Source: a bacterium (lineage in GTDB: Bacteria; Eisenbacteria; RBG-16-71-46; CAIMUX01). From it: a DNA stretch of 64,000 nucleotides. The notes below the pieces were generated by a model that saw only the letters and a program-made list of their open reading frames with translations, searched no databases and had not been told where the DNA came from. The DNA lies in NCBI GenBank assembly GCA_030431975.1, contig JAUIHP010000015.1, forward strand, positions 1 through 64,000. The letters run 5' to 3'. Below, piece after piece: positions 3,459 to 64,000 of the stretch. The position numbers were made by a program, and so were the translations under genes. Each line of letters begins with the position of its first letter. Positions within the stretch are counted from its first letter, which is position 1.

Positions 3459-6069
<2,611 letters not shown>

Positions 6070-6077
6070 CGAGAGGG

Positions 6078-6106
6078 AGCTTAGGGTCAATTCTGGAACT
6101 TGTCAA
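6078..6106 (-). promoter_or_regulatory. Sigma70-type promoter of perR-katG, apparently leaderless
   Basis: On the minus strand TTGACA (6101-6106) and TAAGCT (6078-6083) are separated by exactly 17 bp. The ATG begins 8 bp after the -10 box, so transcription would start at or next to it. Just upstream, ATTACTCTAAT is a short palindrome (ATTA-N3-TAAT) in AT-rich DNA, a plausible but unproven Fur/PerR operator. Confidence 0.7.
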
Positions 6107-58295: not shown

Positions 58296-59438
58296 ATGGA
58301 TCGATTTTTGGGGGGCGCCGGGAGCTCCCGTGAGGCGAATCTGGTGACTCGGCGGTTCTCCGGTTCCGGCTCGCCAAGCCGTCATCGGGTCGGAGCTGTC
58401 CTCCGGCCTCTGCACCTGCTCCGTGTTCTGGCCCTGCTGGGATCGATTGGAGTCGGTCCAACCGGGTGCGCCTCGTCCACGCCTCCGGCGGGCGATCCGG
58501 TGTCCAGCGACATGCCCCGGGCCGTTTCTTTCGATCGGGACCTGGGATGGAGGGGCCATGCCGTCTGCTACGGCCCCTTCCGAGACGGACAAAGCCCTGA
58601 TGGTGCGTCGCCGACCCCGGAGCAACTTCTGGAAGACCTTCGCATCATGGAACGCCACTGGAGCCTGCTTCGGGTCTACGGTTCCCGTGGAGCCACGGAG
58701 ACGCTGGTCGGGCTGATCCACGAGCACGACTTGAAGATGAAGGTCGTCGTCGGCGCCTGGATTGCTGCGGAAGAAACGCGGGACGAAAGCGGCGAGGTCA
58801 TCGAGCGTTTCCCGGATGTGGCGGAAGCCAACCAGGCCGAGGTGGCGACGGCAGCCCAGTTGGCCCATCGCTACCCGGACGTCGTCGCGGCCATCAGTAT
58901 CGGTAATGAGACTCAAGTTTACTGGTCCGGACACCGCAGCCCGCTCGACATCCTTATCACTTATGTCCGAGAGGCCCGTTCGAAGGTTTCGGTTCCCGTG
59001 ACGGTGGCGGACGACTTCAACTTCTGGAACAAGCCGGAAAGTCGGGAGCTGGCCGTCGAACTCGACTTCCTCCTGCTGCACGCCCATCCCATGTGGAACG
59101 GTCTGCAGTTGGACGCAGCGCTCGGCTGGCTGCAAGCGCAGGTCGCCGACGTAGAGACGCTTCACCCCGATCGTCCCGTCGTCGTGGGGGAGACAGGTTG
59201 GGCCACCTCCGTCCACTCCGAAGGAGAGCAAGCGACGTTGATCCAGGGCCGGCCGGGGGAAGACGAGCAGGAAGCGTTCTATGACTCTGTCCGCAACTGG
59301 TCGGCCGAAAGCCGCTTTCCGGTCTTTTGGTTCGAGGCGTTCGACGAGAAGTGGAAAGGCGGGTCGCATCCGGCCGAGGTGGAGAAACACTGGGGGGTGT
59401 TTCGATCGGATCGGTCTTCCAAGGCGGCTGTGAAGTAG
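58296..59438 (+). CDS. GH17-like glycoside hydrolase lipoprotein
   Basis: 380 aa. An N-terminal hydrophobic segment ends in GPTGCASS, a probable lipobox. The TIM-barrel core has GHAVCYGPFRDGQSPDG, WSLLRVYGSRGATETLVGL, ISIGNETQVYWSG (acid/base Glu), LHAHPMWNG, VVGETGWATSVHSEG (nucleophile Glu) and FWFEAFDEKWKGG, all typical of family 17 beta-1,3-glucanase-like proteins. It probably trims beta-glucans at the cell surface. The ATG at 58296 lacks a strong ribosome site. Divergent from the helicase. Confidence 0.82.
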   Translation: MDRFLGGAGSSREANLVTRRFSGSGSPSRHRVGAVLRPLHLLRVLALLGSIGVGPTGCASSTPPAGDPVSSDMPRAVSFDRDLGWRGHAVCYGPFRDGQSPDGASPTPEQLLEDLRIMERHWSLLRVYGSRGATETLVGLIHEHDLKMKVVVGAWIAAEETRDESGEVIERFPDVAEANQAEVATAAQLAHRYPDVVAAISIGNETQVYWSGHRSPLDILITYVREARSKVSVPVTVADDFNFWNKPESRELAVELDFLLLHAHPMWNGLQLDAALGWLQAQVADVETLHPDRPVVVGETGWATSVHSEGEQATLIQGRPGEDEQEAFYDSVRNWSAESRFPVFWFEAFDEKWKGGSHPAEVEKHWGVFRSDRSSKAAVK

Positions 59439-59512
59439 TCGGAGGCTCATTGCCGGACAGCCGCCGGAGATCCGTCGGTCCGGACAAGCCATGCCGTTCC
59501 GGTCCGGTCCGA

Positions 59513-60664
59513 CTATGGCCCAATCAAGGGAAACGTCGACCCGTCTTCGACCACTCCGTCCTTGTCCACATAGTGAACCTGCCCGGTCAGCATTCCTGAC
59601 GCCGCCACTTCGACCCTCATGAACTGGTTTCGCTCGTTGTCCACCATGACGTCTTCCTGAACCACATCCCACGCTTCCATGCGCGAGAACCCCTTCTCCC
59701 TCAGAAACTCGCTCTCTTCGCCCCGAATGTCCTTGGCCCGACGCGCCCCGTCGCCGATCCAAAGAAACCCGGTCCTCGGCCGGCCCGAGACGTTGATCAC
59801 CTGCATCGATCGTCCAAGGTGGCGAATGCTGAAGCGTTCGTAGGTGTGAGTGTGGCCGACGACGAGAGCGTCGATTTCCAGGTTCAGCAACCACTCCGGC
59901 AGGAACGTCCCATCGACTTGAAGGTCCCAAAGACGCTGTGCGGCTTTGCGGTGCTTCTTGCTCGTTTGGATGAACGGATGGTGGAACGCGGCGACGACGG
60001 TTTCCTGAAACGGTTCAGTCGTCTGCTCTCGCTGCAACCACTCGAACTGCGCGTAGATCTCAGGAGCCGTCTCGGACGTGACGTCGGTGACCGTCTCCGG
60101 CAGCTCGTAGATCCATGGATTCGAATCGAGGAAGAGAAACGTCACGGGTCCGACATCCTTCCGGTAGTAGCGACGCTCTTCCGAGAAGGCCGGGTCCAGG
60201 TAGGAGAGGAACTGGAAGGTGTGACGGGAACTCTCTTCGTACTCCAGGTTGTTCAACTCGTGATTGCCGACGGCGACCAGGTAAGGCCACAGCGAGATGG
60301 GTTCGAGGATGTCCTTCAGCATGTGGAACTGGTCAGAGTGTCGGCCGCTGTAGACGATGTCCCCAGTATCCATGATGAAGAGCATGTGCGGGTCCTGTTC
60401 GAAACGCTCTCGGATGGCGGCGTTCATCAACTGCCACTCTCCATCCGCCAAGGCGCGCTGGTCTCCGAAGACGACAAAGCGGTAGCCGTTGGCTGCGCCA
60501 CTGGGATCCGCGTCCAGAACGTCCTCGAGGGTGGGGTGGTCGAGCCGCTCGACAGGGTGATCCGATGAGCTGGGCCAGGGTGCGCCGACTTCCCACGGCC
60601 ATGTGAAGGCGTAGAGGGCGAGAGCTGAACCCAGAAGTAGTAGCGTGAGGACAGTTGTCTTCAT
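59513..60664 (-). CDS. Exported calcineurin-like metallophosphoesterase
   Basis: 383 aa with an N-terminal signal peptide or anchor (MKTTVLTLLLLGSALALYAF). Metal-site motifs in order: FVVFGDQR, MDTGDIVYSGR, VAVGNHE, FHHPFIQT and VVGHTHTYER, so the two-metal centre looks complete. This is the layout of purple-acid-phosphatase-like secreted enzymes. The substrate is unknown. It converges on the GH17 gene with a 74-bp gap. Confidence 0.9.
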   Translation of the reverse strand: MKTTVLTLLLLGSALALYAFTWPWEVGAPWPSSSDHPVERLDHPTLEDVLDADPSGAANGYRFVVFGDQRALADGEWQLMNAAIRERFEQDPHMLFIMDTGDIVYSGRHSDQFHMLKDILEPISLWPYLVAVGNHELNNLEYEESSRHTFQFLSYLDPAFSEERRYYRKDVGPVTFLFLDSNPWIYELPETVTDVTSETAPEIYAQFEWLQREQTTEPFQETVVAAFHHPFIQTSKKHRKAAQRLWDLQVDGTFLPEWLLNLEIDALVVGHTHTYERFSIRHLGRSMQVINVSGRPRTGFLWIGDGARRAKDIRGEESEFLREKGFSRMEAWDVVQEDVMVDNERNQFMRVEVAASGMLTGQVHYVDKDGVVEDGSTFPLIGP

Positions 60665-60887: not shown

Positions 60888-61118
60888 ATGAAAAGTCGAT
60901 GGCCAGGTTTCCTCGTGGCCCTGGCTGCGGTTGGATCGCTCTTGGGTTGTGGGGCCGAAGTTCCATCTCGGCCTGAAACCGGGTTTGGCGCTCCGGCGTC
61001 AGACGGTGTTGCAACCCATGTCTGCCTGGGTCTTTGCAGCGGGAACACTCATTTCAGCCCCGACGGTAGCCCGTTGGTGGTTGACCCAGTGACCGGCTTG
61101 CCAGGCGAGAAGAAGTAG
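60888..61118 (+). CDS. Small lipoprotein of unknown function
   Basis: 76 aa, ATG preceded by GAAGAGGAGG. Signal peptide with lipobox SLLGC (Cys about 21), then a short mature part with CLGLC and a Pro/Gly-rich end (SPDGSPLVVDPVTGLPGEKK). No family recognised. It is followed after 19 bp by the His-rich gene and may share its transcript; the CxxxC pair could bind metal or form a disulfide. Confidence 0.7.
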   Translation: MKSRWPGFLVALAAVGSLLGCGAEVPSRPETGFGAPASDGVATHVCLGLCSGNTHFSPDGSPLVVDPVTGLPGEKK

Positions 61119-61137
61119 TCCATTACGAAAATCTGGC

Positions 61138-61617
61138 ATGCATAGCGCTCGTCTCAAAAGCTGGAGGATGATCCTTGTCGCGGCGGTCACCGTCGCCACG
61201 CTGGCTCATCCTCTGCTCTTGCAGCTTCACGAGCAGATCGAGCACGACTGCGGTCACGAGCATGCTGTTGCTGCCGTCGGTGCGCATCACGCGCCTTCCA
61301 AAGTCACCGAGGATCACGGCCACTGTGACGGTGCCGATCACCTCGGGCACCATTCGCACCACGACACGCCGTCCGACGTCGTCCACGACGAACCGGTCGA
61401 GACAGGTGACAGTCACGACCACCACTGCTTCCATTGCGTTCTCTGCTACGCAGCCGCGCACACTGGGCTGAGCGAAACTACGGTCAGCCTTTCCGCTTGC
61501 ACGATCGACTCCGGGGATGCCCCGGAATCACGAACCCTCGACCCCCTCACAGCATCCGCCAACCCGGGTTCTCCCCGGGCTCCGCCCATCTCTCTGTTCG
61601 ACAGTCCGCTTTCCTAG
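61138..61617 (+). CDS. His-rich exported/membrane protein (DUF2946-like)
   Basis: 159 aa. N-terminal helix (RMILVAAVTVATLAHPLLLQL), then a very His-rich stretch (EQIEHDCGHEH ... HHAPS ... DHGHCDGADHLGHHSHHD) with at least 20 His, then DHHCFHCVLCYAAAHTG with CxxC. The pattern resembles DUF2946/metal-resistance accessory proteins, and zinc or copper binding is a reasonable inference. An alternative ATG at 61165 sits immediately after GGAGG, too close. It lies upstream of the 117-residue-repeat genes. Confidence 0.72.
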   Translation: MHSARLKSWRMILVAAVTVATLAHPLLLQLHEQIEHDCGHEHAVAAVGAHHAPSKVTEDHGHCDGADHLGHHSHHDTPSDVVHDEPVETGDSHDHHCFHCVLCYAAAHTGLSETTVSLSACTIDSGDAPESRTLDPLTASANPGSPRAPPISLFDSPLS

Positions 61618-61870
61618 CAACTATCCAGGAAAAGAGAGATCGGAGTTTCAAAAGGGGAACTCCGCCCACTCGCGCGTCAGATCTTGCGCCCGATCTCGCT
61701 CCCGATTCGGAGGGCCGCATCGTGGCACCTACCGCGTTCCCAGAGCTGATGGCTCTGGCTGAGCGGACGGTCTGCGCGCTCTAACAGGGTTCGACAATTT
61801 CGGACGGGACGACCTTCGACTCGGATCGTCGCCGTACCGCCGTTGTCGGACGCGAAAGGAATTGGCGAAC

Positions 61871-63304
61871 ATGCATCGCTTTGGGATTTCTGCGTGGCTG
61901 ACGGTTCTGGTCCTCGCCATGCTGCCGTTGAGTACGAGTTTTGCCGGGGATCACGCTGAAGCCGAGGGAATGATCCTGCGCCAGGACGGAGAAGTCATCG
62001 TCACGGTTTGGGAAGGTGTCGTCACCGGCGAGATCGAGATCCATCACGAAGAGACGACGTCAGACATCACGGTGTCCTTCCTCGATCCGGAGATGGACGA
62101 GTTCACTCCGGAAGTGACCGAGGGATTCTCGCTCTACGCGGAGTTGGCCGACTCGTCGGCTTTGACATACATGTCCACCGGCGACTGGACGTTTACCCTC
62201 ACCGGTGACGTCGAAGGCGTGACAGGCATGTTCCTCGGGGTCTTCCACGAGGGCCATACCGACTGGGTGTCCCCCGAAGTCGAGGTCCACGTTGAAGAAG
62301 AGCACGCCGAGGCCGAGGGCTTGGTCCTTCGTCAGGACGGCGAGGTCATCGTCACGGTTTGGGAAGGTGTCGTTACCGGTGAGATCGAGATCCATCACGA
62401 AGAGACGACGTCGGACATCACGGTGTCCTTCCTCGATTCGAAGATGGACGAGTTCACGCCGGAAGTGACCGAGGGCTTTTCTCTCTACGCCGAGTTGGCT
62501 GATTCGTCGGCCTTGACCTACATGGCGACCGGTGACTGGACGTTTACGCTGACTGGTGACGTCGAAGGCGAGACGGGGATCTTTCTCGGAATCTTCCACG
62601 AAGGCCATACGGACTACGTGTCTCCTGAGATCGAAGTCCACGTTGAAGAAGAGCACGCCGAGGCCGAGGGTCTGGTGATCCGTCAAAACGGCGTCCAGCA
62701 GGTTCGGGTCTTCGAAGGGGTCGTCGAGGGGACGCTCTATGCAGTGAACGGTGTCACGTCCGATGACTTCGAGGTGACTTTCCTCGACCACGATGGTGAC
62801 GAGTTCCAGCCCGAGACGGCGGAAGGCTTCCTGCAGTGGGCGGAGATGGCTGACTCGAGTTTCGCGGACTACTCCCAGTCGGGAGACTGGACGTTTACAC
62901 TGCACGGTTTGGTCAACGGGTCCACGGGAATCTCGCTTGGCATCTTCCACGAGGGGCATCTGGACTACCAGTCCCCAGTCGTTCCGCTCGAGGTCTTGAG
63001 CCCGTCGAGCACGGATGACTTCGAGCCTGCGGTCACCGAGGTCGTACTCAATCCGCCGAGCCCGAACCCGGTCCGTTCGATGGCACGGTTGTCGTTCGGT
63101 CTCCCCCAGGCCTCTCGCGTGGACATTCGTGTCTTCGACGCAACGGGACGCCAGGACGAGATGTTGATGCAGGGATCCCGCGACGCAGGAATGCACAGCG
63201 TGAATTGGCAAACCGGCGGAGTCGCAGAAGGTGTGTACTTCGTTCGTATGTGGACGCCTGACGCGGTTCGGACGAGCCGTGTCGTTGTCATCGCCGGTAG
63301 GTAG
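61871..63304 (+). CDS. Secreted protein with three tandem ~117-aa repeats and FlgD-like C-terminus
   Basis: 477 aa. Signal peptide to about residue 25 (STSFAG). Three tandem domains start at about 61955, 62306 and 62657, exactly 351 bp apart. Each opens HAEAEGxxxRQxGE, continues VWEGVVTGEIEI, SDITVSFLDxxMDEFTPE, FSLYAELADSS, GDWTFTLTGDVEG, and closes FHEGHTDxxSPEVEVHVEEE. Repeats 1 and 2 are nearly identical at DNA level and repeat 3 is older. The end (LNPPSPNPVRSMARLSFGL ... GVYFVRMWTPDAVRTSRVVVIAGR) is a FlgD-like sorting domain. His/Glu-rich linkers suggest metal binding. No named family recognised. Confidence 0.8.
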   Translation: MHRFGISAWLTVLVLAMLPLSTSFAGDHAEAEGMILRQDGEVIVTVWEGVVTGEIEIHHEETTSDITVSFLDPEMDEFTPEVTEGFSLYAELADSSALTYMSTGDWTFTLTGDVEGVTGMFLGVFHEGHTDWVSPEVEVHVEEEHAEAEGLVLRQDGEVIVTVWEGVVTGEIEIHHEETTSDITVSFLDSKMDEFTPEVTEGFSLYAELADSSALTYMATGDWTFTLTGDVEGETGIFLGIFHEGHTDYVSPEIEVHVEEEHAEAEGLVIRQNGVQQVRVFEGVVEGTLYAVNGVTSDDFEVTFLDHDGDEFQPETAEGFLQWAEMADSSFADYSQSGDWTFTLHGLVNGSTGISLGIFHEGHLDYQSPVVPLEVLSPSSTDDFEPAVTEVVLNPPSPNPVRSMARLSFGLPQASRVDIRVFDATGRQDEMLMQGSRDAGMHSVNWQTGGVAEGVYFVRMWTPDAVRTSRVVVIAGR

Positions 63305-63407
63305 ACAGGTCCTGATCGCGACTTCCGCGCGGGGCACGACCATCCCGGTCGTGCCCTGCCGGGTTGCGGCGACCGAAGTGGGTTGTCAGGACATGAAGGG
63401 AGTCCAA

Positions 63408-64000
63408 ATGTCTGAGAGCAGGTTGAGTCACGGGCTGACGAAGTCGTGGTCGATGATGGCTGTCGCGCTGTTTTGCGCGCTGCTGACACTAAACGGTTGT
63501 AGTGATGACAATCCGGCCGATCCGACGGTCGATGGCTGCTCGCACTTCGATGCCGACGGCGTCATCCTCGAGGTGGACGGCAAGCATCTGGTCGCTCAAT
63601 GGGAAGGCTCGATCGACGGGGAAGTCGAGGTCGAACAGGGATCCGAGATCGACATCGATGTGATGTTTCTGACCCCGGACAGCTCTCGGGCCGTCCCGTC
63701 GGCAGATTGCGACGACCAGTCCCTTGAAGTGATCGTCGATGATGAAAAGGTAGCGACGGTCTCGACTTCTGCGGCGAGTGGACGCTGGTCTTTCCGACTC
63801 ACCGGCGTCGAGGCGGGCGAGACCTCGGTTTCGGTCCGCATCATCCACATCGATCATCCGGACTTCACCTCGCTCGACCTCCCGGTTCACGTACATCACG
63901 CGGAAGAAGTCGAGATCGAAGGATTCGAGATCCGGTCCGGCGCCACGGTCCTGGCTTCGCAGATGGAAGGAACGGTGACCGGAGAGCTTCTCGCCATGCC
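63408..64000 (+). CDS. Lipoprotein with the same repeat domain, truncated by window edge
   Basis: ATG 63408 has AAGGGAG 5 nt upstream. The signal peptide ends CALLTLNGCSDDNPAD, a good lipobox. The mature part begins with DADGVILEVDGKHLVAQWEGSIDGEVEV, clearly the same domain as the preceding gene's repeats. A second copy starts near 63898 (EVEIEGFEIRSGATVLASQMEGTVTGELL) and runs off the window. The cell-anchored partner of the preceding secreted repeat protein is a natural guess. It is co-directional, 103 bp downstream. Confidence 0.78.
   Translation, partial: MSESRLSHGLTKSWSMMAVALFCALLTLNGCSDDNPADPTVDGCSHFDADGVILEVDGKHLVAQWEGSIDGEVEVEQGSEIDIDVMFLTPDSSRAVPSADCDDQSLEVIVDDEKVATVSTSAASGRWSFRLTGVEAGETSVSVRIIHIDHPDFTSLDLPVHVHHAEEVEIEGFEIRSGATVLASQMEGTVTGELLAM

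Follow-up and report, generated by a model that had tools for sequence, protein, structure and literature searches.

What might four genes lying in a row on the + strand of this bacterial contig, within positions 60888-65045, be doing together, and do all four belong to the same system? The stretch analysed, hereafter the window, covers positions 1-64000 of contig C59 of genome G000 and stops inside the fourth gene; as the contig extends past the window, that gene can be read to its end at contig position 65045 (it is complete in our stretch L009). The initial annotation had described the row as a small Cys-containing lipoprotein, a protein with more than 20 His, and two proteins sharing a repeated domain of ~117 residues, one with a sorting domain and the other with a lipobox, and had proposed an extracellular system for capturing or sensing zinc or copper. 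These elements are all present in the ORF list. The first ORF (60888-61118, +) encodes a predicted lipoprotein of 76 aa with the lipobox LLGC and an HVCLGLC motif. It is followed by a 159-aa exported ORF with 21 His and 6 Cys (61138-61617, +), by a 477-aa secreted protein consisting of a signal peptide and three Ig-like His units of ~117 aa (61871-63304, +), and by a 545-aa lipoprotein with the lipobox LNGC and the same kind of unit (63408-64000, + strand, continuing to 65045). The view of the cluster as a single system stands for the latter three, which belong together, as their order is conserved elsewhere. It does not stand for the 76-aa lipoprotein, for which we detected no relative in the 47 genomes of the phylum or in any fetched locus: it appears to be an orphan with no demonstrated part in the system, and its membership is unproven.

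The repeats themselves are clear. In the secreted protein the units start at residues 28, 145 and 262, a spacing of 117, with units 1 and 2 sharing 91% identity and unit 3 sharing 52% with unit 1; the first two units of the lipoprotein are 33-36% identical to these, after which more divergent repeats continue. A search of the same genome recovers the second repeat protein at E 1.6e-30, and the unit profile, which was built from these same units, matches them at E 1e-47 to 1e-60, so that, judged by sequence, the repetition is far beyond chance. The secreted protein ends in a C-terminal type A sorting domain of the type IX secretion system (T9SS; residues 398-473, 63062-63289, +), scoring 24 bits against a TIGR04183 cut-off of 23, and the T9SS translocon SprA is encoded in the genome with a score above its own cut-off. 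The genome also gives about 150 matches, mostly to such C-terminal T9SS tails. With sorting domain and translocon both present, the protein is a predicted T9SS cargo.

How far does this arrangement extend beyond the window? Within its phylum, the unit occurs in only two of the 47 genomes, G000 and G018, and G018 likewise carries a His-rich ORF upstream of the unit gene. A first scan of genome contigs with a WEG motif gave zero matches and a tblastn search of plasmid records gave none, whereas a scan of GTDB genomes with the motif HxxHxD returned 13 loci, labelled Desulfocapsa, Latescibacterota, Gemmatimonadetes, Melioribacteraceae, Kapaibacterium, Calditrichota, Ignavibacteria or unnamed bacterium (the labels were taken over from the records; some of these metagenome-assembled genomes may be mis-binned). 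Sampling the phylum of the Melioribacteraceae, by our reading Bacteroidota, yielded the unit in 94 of 396 genomes, and the Latescibacterota in 31 of 64. Relatives thus span several phyla, usually as a lipoprotein with a single unit. Tandem lipoproteins are also found in Latescibacterota, and a clearly non-lipidated unit protein within the operon was seen only in G000, G018 and the nearest relative, L026 (62% identity), in which the leader ORF, secreted tandem protein, lipoprotein and a TonB-dependent receptor stand all together. In two Latescibacterota loci away from the receptor, the unit is the last domain of a larger protein, by eye WD40/protease-like in one (L205:5672-8746) and cohesin/dockerin-like in the other (L206:4737-5801). 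Overall, the operon is widespread in bacteria and yet uncurated.

The regular partner of the unit gene is this receptor. In all 71 scored loci a TonB receptor gene follows it in the same orientation, either directly or one gene further on; a few have a small ORF in between (in L028, a decayed second copy), and two of the 71 receptors are split into two frames. Of 20 control stretches drawn from these genomes, just one contained any such TonB match. The association also holds across the 396 sampled genomes, the receptor being found in 94/94 of those with the domain and 17/302 of those without (p 5e-74, by a statistic that ignores relatedness). The relatives' receptors carry plug and barrel Pfam domains, and their best PDB match is Neisseria ZnuD (4rdr, E 1e-28 to 6e-35). 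Their best NCBIfam match is Zn_piracy_ZnuD (NF038289, E 1e-48 to 1e-58); as their 163-199 bits fall below its strict cut-off of 950 bits, we call them ZnuD-like rather than ZnuD. The zinc ligands of ZnuD are D99, H100, E340 and H499 (PMC4557270), which correspond to D113, H114, E354 and H513 in our chain alignment (an offset of 14, counted by eye). The residues aligned with them, D192, H193, E377 and H520 in L026 numbering, are conserved in 100, 100, 99 and 100% of 67 adjacent receptors, whilst the DHA and GPH motifs are mostly missing from the non-adjacent TonB receptors of the loci and from the single control receptor. G000 encodes one such receptor, of the plug/barrel type and with the four zinc ligands in place (the aligned stretches read SDHA, KELE and GPHLA), unlinked from the cluster at G000:C11:93525-95801, and we found no RAPP leader upstream of it. 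The linkage was probably lost in the window's lineage. Two very similar loci, L115 and L117, have a second ZnuD-like receptor beside the operon, broken in the former and intact in the latter, which suggests a duplication.

What, then, would a lipoprotein next to a ZnuD-like receptor be for? AlphaFold2, run with 23 related sequences, gives an all-beta unit with a pLDDT of 94.5, a confidently predicted Ig-like domain. The domain had been described as one that could not be named, and this remains accurate: neither Pfam nor NCBIfam names a family for single-unit homologues, apart from sub-threshold Ig matches, although some multi-unit members match a small pilus N-terminal domain (PF13629). The nearest families are Big_2 and its relatives, which share the predicted fold and give weak profile matches, but the unit stays under the Big_2 cut-off (17.8 vs 22.8 bits), and Big_2-type families, to our knowledge, do not share the conserved H...HxxHxD pattern. 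A PDB sequence search returned only a nucleoporin Ig domain (E 0.8), and Foldseek gave modest scores to Ig-like domains of the phage lambda tube protein, the S-layer protein SbsC, Nup210 and filamin, with no metal proteins among the top matches. SusD- and TbpB-type partners of outer membrane receptors are lids or ligand docks. Perhaps, then, the lipoprotein is a mere structural lid or scaffold for the receptor, its His residues being structural or pH-sensing, and the receptor takes up zinc, another metal or a heme chelate; the resemblance to tube, S-layer and filamin domains fits this reading, which we regard as a real if minority possibility. The pattern of conservation speaks against it. Across 127 units, His1 is kept in 95%, His100 in 94%, His103 in 82% and Asp105 in 80%, and the units are almost without Cys and poor in Met. 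By this profile, H1, HxxH and D are the unit's most conserved potential ligands, and they rank among the most conserved residues of a fast-evolving domain.

Turning to the His-rich ORF, the initial annotation had by implication counted it among the capture proteins, and here our reading departs from it. The ORF has CFHC at residues 97-100 (nt 61426-61437) and RAPP at residues 147-150 (nt 61576-61587), nine residues before the stop. In CruR of Bordetella, a CxxC is followed after 45 residues by RAPP, and copper-relieved stalling together with Rho termination controls a TonB-receptor operon (PMC9426467); CutF is related to CruR (PMC9973294). More generally, RAPP and RGPP act as strong arrest motifs; proteomes avoid them, and leaders that precede genes for TonB receptors are enriched in them (PMC12992588). 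The window's ORF has both hallmarks of the CruR type, a C-terminal RAPP and a CxxC about 45 residues before it, the gap being 46 from CFHC and 43 from a CVLC. Where relatives have a CxxC the gap is mostly 41-46, and many keep only one Cys. A small ORF of this kind, with a C-terminal RxPP in which x is mostly A, G or S, precedes the lipoprotein gene in 64 of 71 homologous loci, as against 5 of 767 background genes. Its Pfam DUF2946 score is below the gathering cut-off (12.7 vs 23.7 bits; relatives 12.5-13.6), and so we call the leader CruR-like rather than a DUF2946 member. At the RNA level, a C>G bubble runs across its 3' end (61490-61620, +; C minus G reaches 0.29 per 78 nt, which ranks within the top 0.3% of 78-nt stretches on the window's + strand), a candidate Rho loading region by base composition, and the 253-bp intergenic region that follows (61618-61870, +) is predicted to be highly structured, folding with its flanks at -144 kcal/mol (z -4.8). 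These RNA-level correlates of metal-dependent stalling and Rho control match CruR, as does the spacing from CxxC to RAPP. The ORF probably encodes a short leader peptide that would sense metal by stalling the ribosome translating it, and thereby switch the genes behind it on or off. With 21 His, 6 Cys and a signal-anchor-like N-terminus, it could alternatively buffer or chaperone metal in the periplasm or outside the cell. We consider this unlikely, given a motif near the C-terminus from a class of tetrapeptides that proteomes strongly avoid (PMC12992588), the position of the ORF directly before the unit gene, and a length and sequence that vary apart from that motif. One leader, L123:7142-7486, resembles the NCBIfam family LIC10965 (Leptospira by name) below its cut-off, hinting that the class may extend to spirochaetes.

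Which metal would such a leader sense? The characterised leaders, CruR and CutF, are both copper-responsive: CruR is copper-specific, senses the metal through its CxxC and heads a TonB-receptor operon (PMC9426467), and Cys-type CutF-like proteins mostly head copper genes (PMC9973294). With a CxxC in many leaders of these loci, the same architecture could be a CruR-regulated copper import operon resembling cruR-bfrG (crtA) of Bordetella, the lipoprotein acting as a Cu(II) collector. We hold this to be very unlikely: the receptor has ZnuD and not a copper receptor as its nearest relative and keeps the full set of four zinc ligands, the units have almost no Cys and little Met, and in some loci genes for ZnuABC, Fur and COG0523 are linked. 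CrtA, a family of copper receptors, was also considered and set aside, as it is reported to have two conserved His only and a PepSY_TM neighbour, unlike these receptors and loci (PMC12914433). The linkage to metal genes, which the initial annotation had proposed to check in homologues, is borne out by the adjoining receptor and, in single loci, by ZnuABC, a Fur-family regulator, COG0523, ZIP and CDF genes. L031 reads znuA-znuC-znuB-fur-leader-lipoprotein-receptor; L030 has a CDF, an ArsP permease and a COG0523 GTPase along with ZnuABC and Fur, and L028 the same three along with a ZIP. Loci of this kind are a minority. For most Bacteroidota loci the fetched stretch contains no further zinc gene, so the case for specificity depends mainly on the receptor. 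G000 itself encodes ZnuABC (G000:C5) and an ArsP-like permease away from the window; directly after znuABC, at G000:C5:487664-490057, the ArsP/YraQ-like permease has a long His/Asp-rich loop. Taken together, the evidence favours zinc over copper. A palindrome search upstream of the leaders found no Zur box. The best candidate, TATGGAGTAAATCCCAT-like and about 100-240 bp upstream, is confined to one synteny group and coincides by eye with the YGVNPI codons of a divergent neighbour, and as it seems to be conserved coding sequence of that neighbour we rejected it. The window's Fur-family gene (5647-6090, minus) was not taken as a Zur, lying as it does beside katG: a katG-like catalase-peroxidase gene and the Fur gene occupy 3479-6090 on the minus strand in a PerR-like arrangement, and a similar Fur-katG pair lies near one homologous locus (L136:11235-13857).

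The best explanation of the cluster, and one in which we have considerable confidence, is thus a zinc-acquisition module. The earlier idea of extracellular zinc or copper capture is strongly supported by the context of the homologues. Outside the outer membrane, the His/Asp-bearing Ig-like units would bind or concentrate Zn(II), carried on the lipoprotein and, in the window's clade, on the T9SS-secreted tandem protein, which may be either anchored or released. The lipoprotein, presumably surface-exposed, would hand Zn(II) over to the ZnuD-type TonB-dependent receptor, encoded elsewhere in G000. As the leader is translated, its metal-sensing region ~45 residues before RAPP would decide whether the ribosome stalls and, through this, between Rho termination and expression of the downstream genes. 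Some facts sit less comfortably with this module, namely a receptor that is unlinked in the window's own genome, nearby zinc genes in a minority of loci with no Zur box found, a leader under the DUF2946 cut-off, and the copper response of the characterised leaders CruR and CutF.

How would such a module compare with known systems? ZnuD/TdfJ of Neisseria is the nearest solved relative of these receptors and has the four zinc ligands that they keep, but it has no lipid-modified partner (PMC6965322), whereas here a lipoprotein and a leader precede a receptor scoring below the NCBIfam ZnuD cut-off. CruR-BfrG/CrtA of Bordetella and CutF-CutO of Rhodobacter share the exported CxxC leader, the C-terminal RAPP (Pro-rich in CutF) and a metal operon (PMC9426467, PMC9973294), and CruR further shares the TonB receptor, the C>G bubble, the long intergenic region and a gap of 45 where the window has 46 (PMC9426467). 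Those systems respond to copper, and the loci described here differ from them in the Ig-like lipoprotein that follows and in their ZnuD-like receptor. As in TbpAB, SusCD and BtuBG, a lipoprotein gene stands beside a receptor gene, with substrate capture presumed to take place outside; the lipoprotein folds are unrelated, and the presumed substrate here is a free metal ion and not a protein, glycan or cobamide. Associations of leaders with TonB receptors are already known in bulk. In the literature that we searched, we found neither an Ig-like His lipoprotein as a regular neighbour of ZnuD-like receptors, nor a zinc rather than copper setting for this type of leader, nor a tandem T9SS-secreted form of the unit. 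We tentatively put forward, as a speculation that could well prove wrong, that a widespread operon for zinc uptake is under the control of a nascent-chain arrest peptide which senses zinc instead of copper, that ZnuD-type receptors have their dedicated partner in the so far unnamed Ig-like His lipoprotein, and that its T9SS-secreted tandem form is a released protein zincophore in the window's clade. The zinc-acquisition reading itself proposes a dedicated lipoprotein partner for ZnuD-type zinc import, extends control by RAPP arrest peptides to an apparent zinc system, and offers a likely function for a lipoprotein family that is conserved yet uncurated and that about a quarter of the genomes sampled from one large phylum encode.

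Some further features of the surroundings deserve mention. Just upstream of the operon, at window positions 58296-60664, the genes for a GH17-like glycosidase lipoprotein and a calcineurin-like phosphoesterase converge. Just downstream, a predicted protein encoded at L009 5103-6038 (contig C59:65103-66038, minus) combines, by eye, an acyltransferase-like N-terminal part with C-terminal SH3-like repeats. Near the start of the window, at 1200-1500, a tandem DNA repeat encodes a run of DRT/TDR tripeptides within an otherwise unremarkable open frame.
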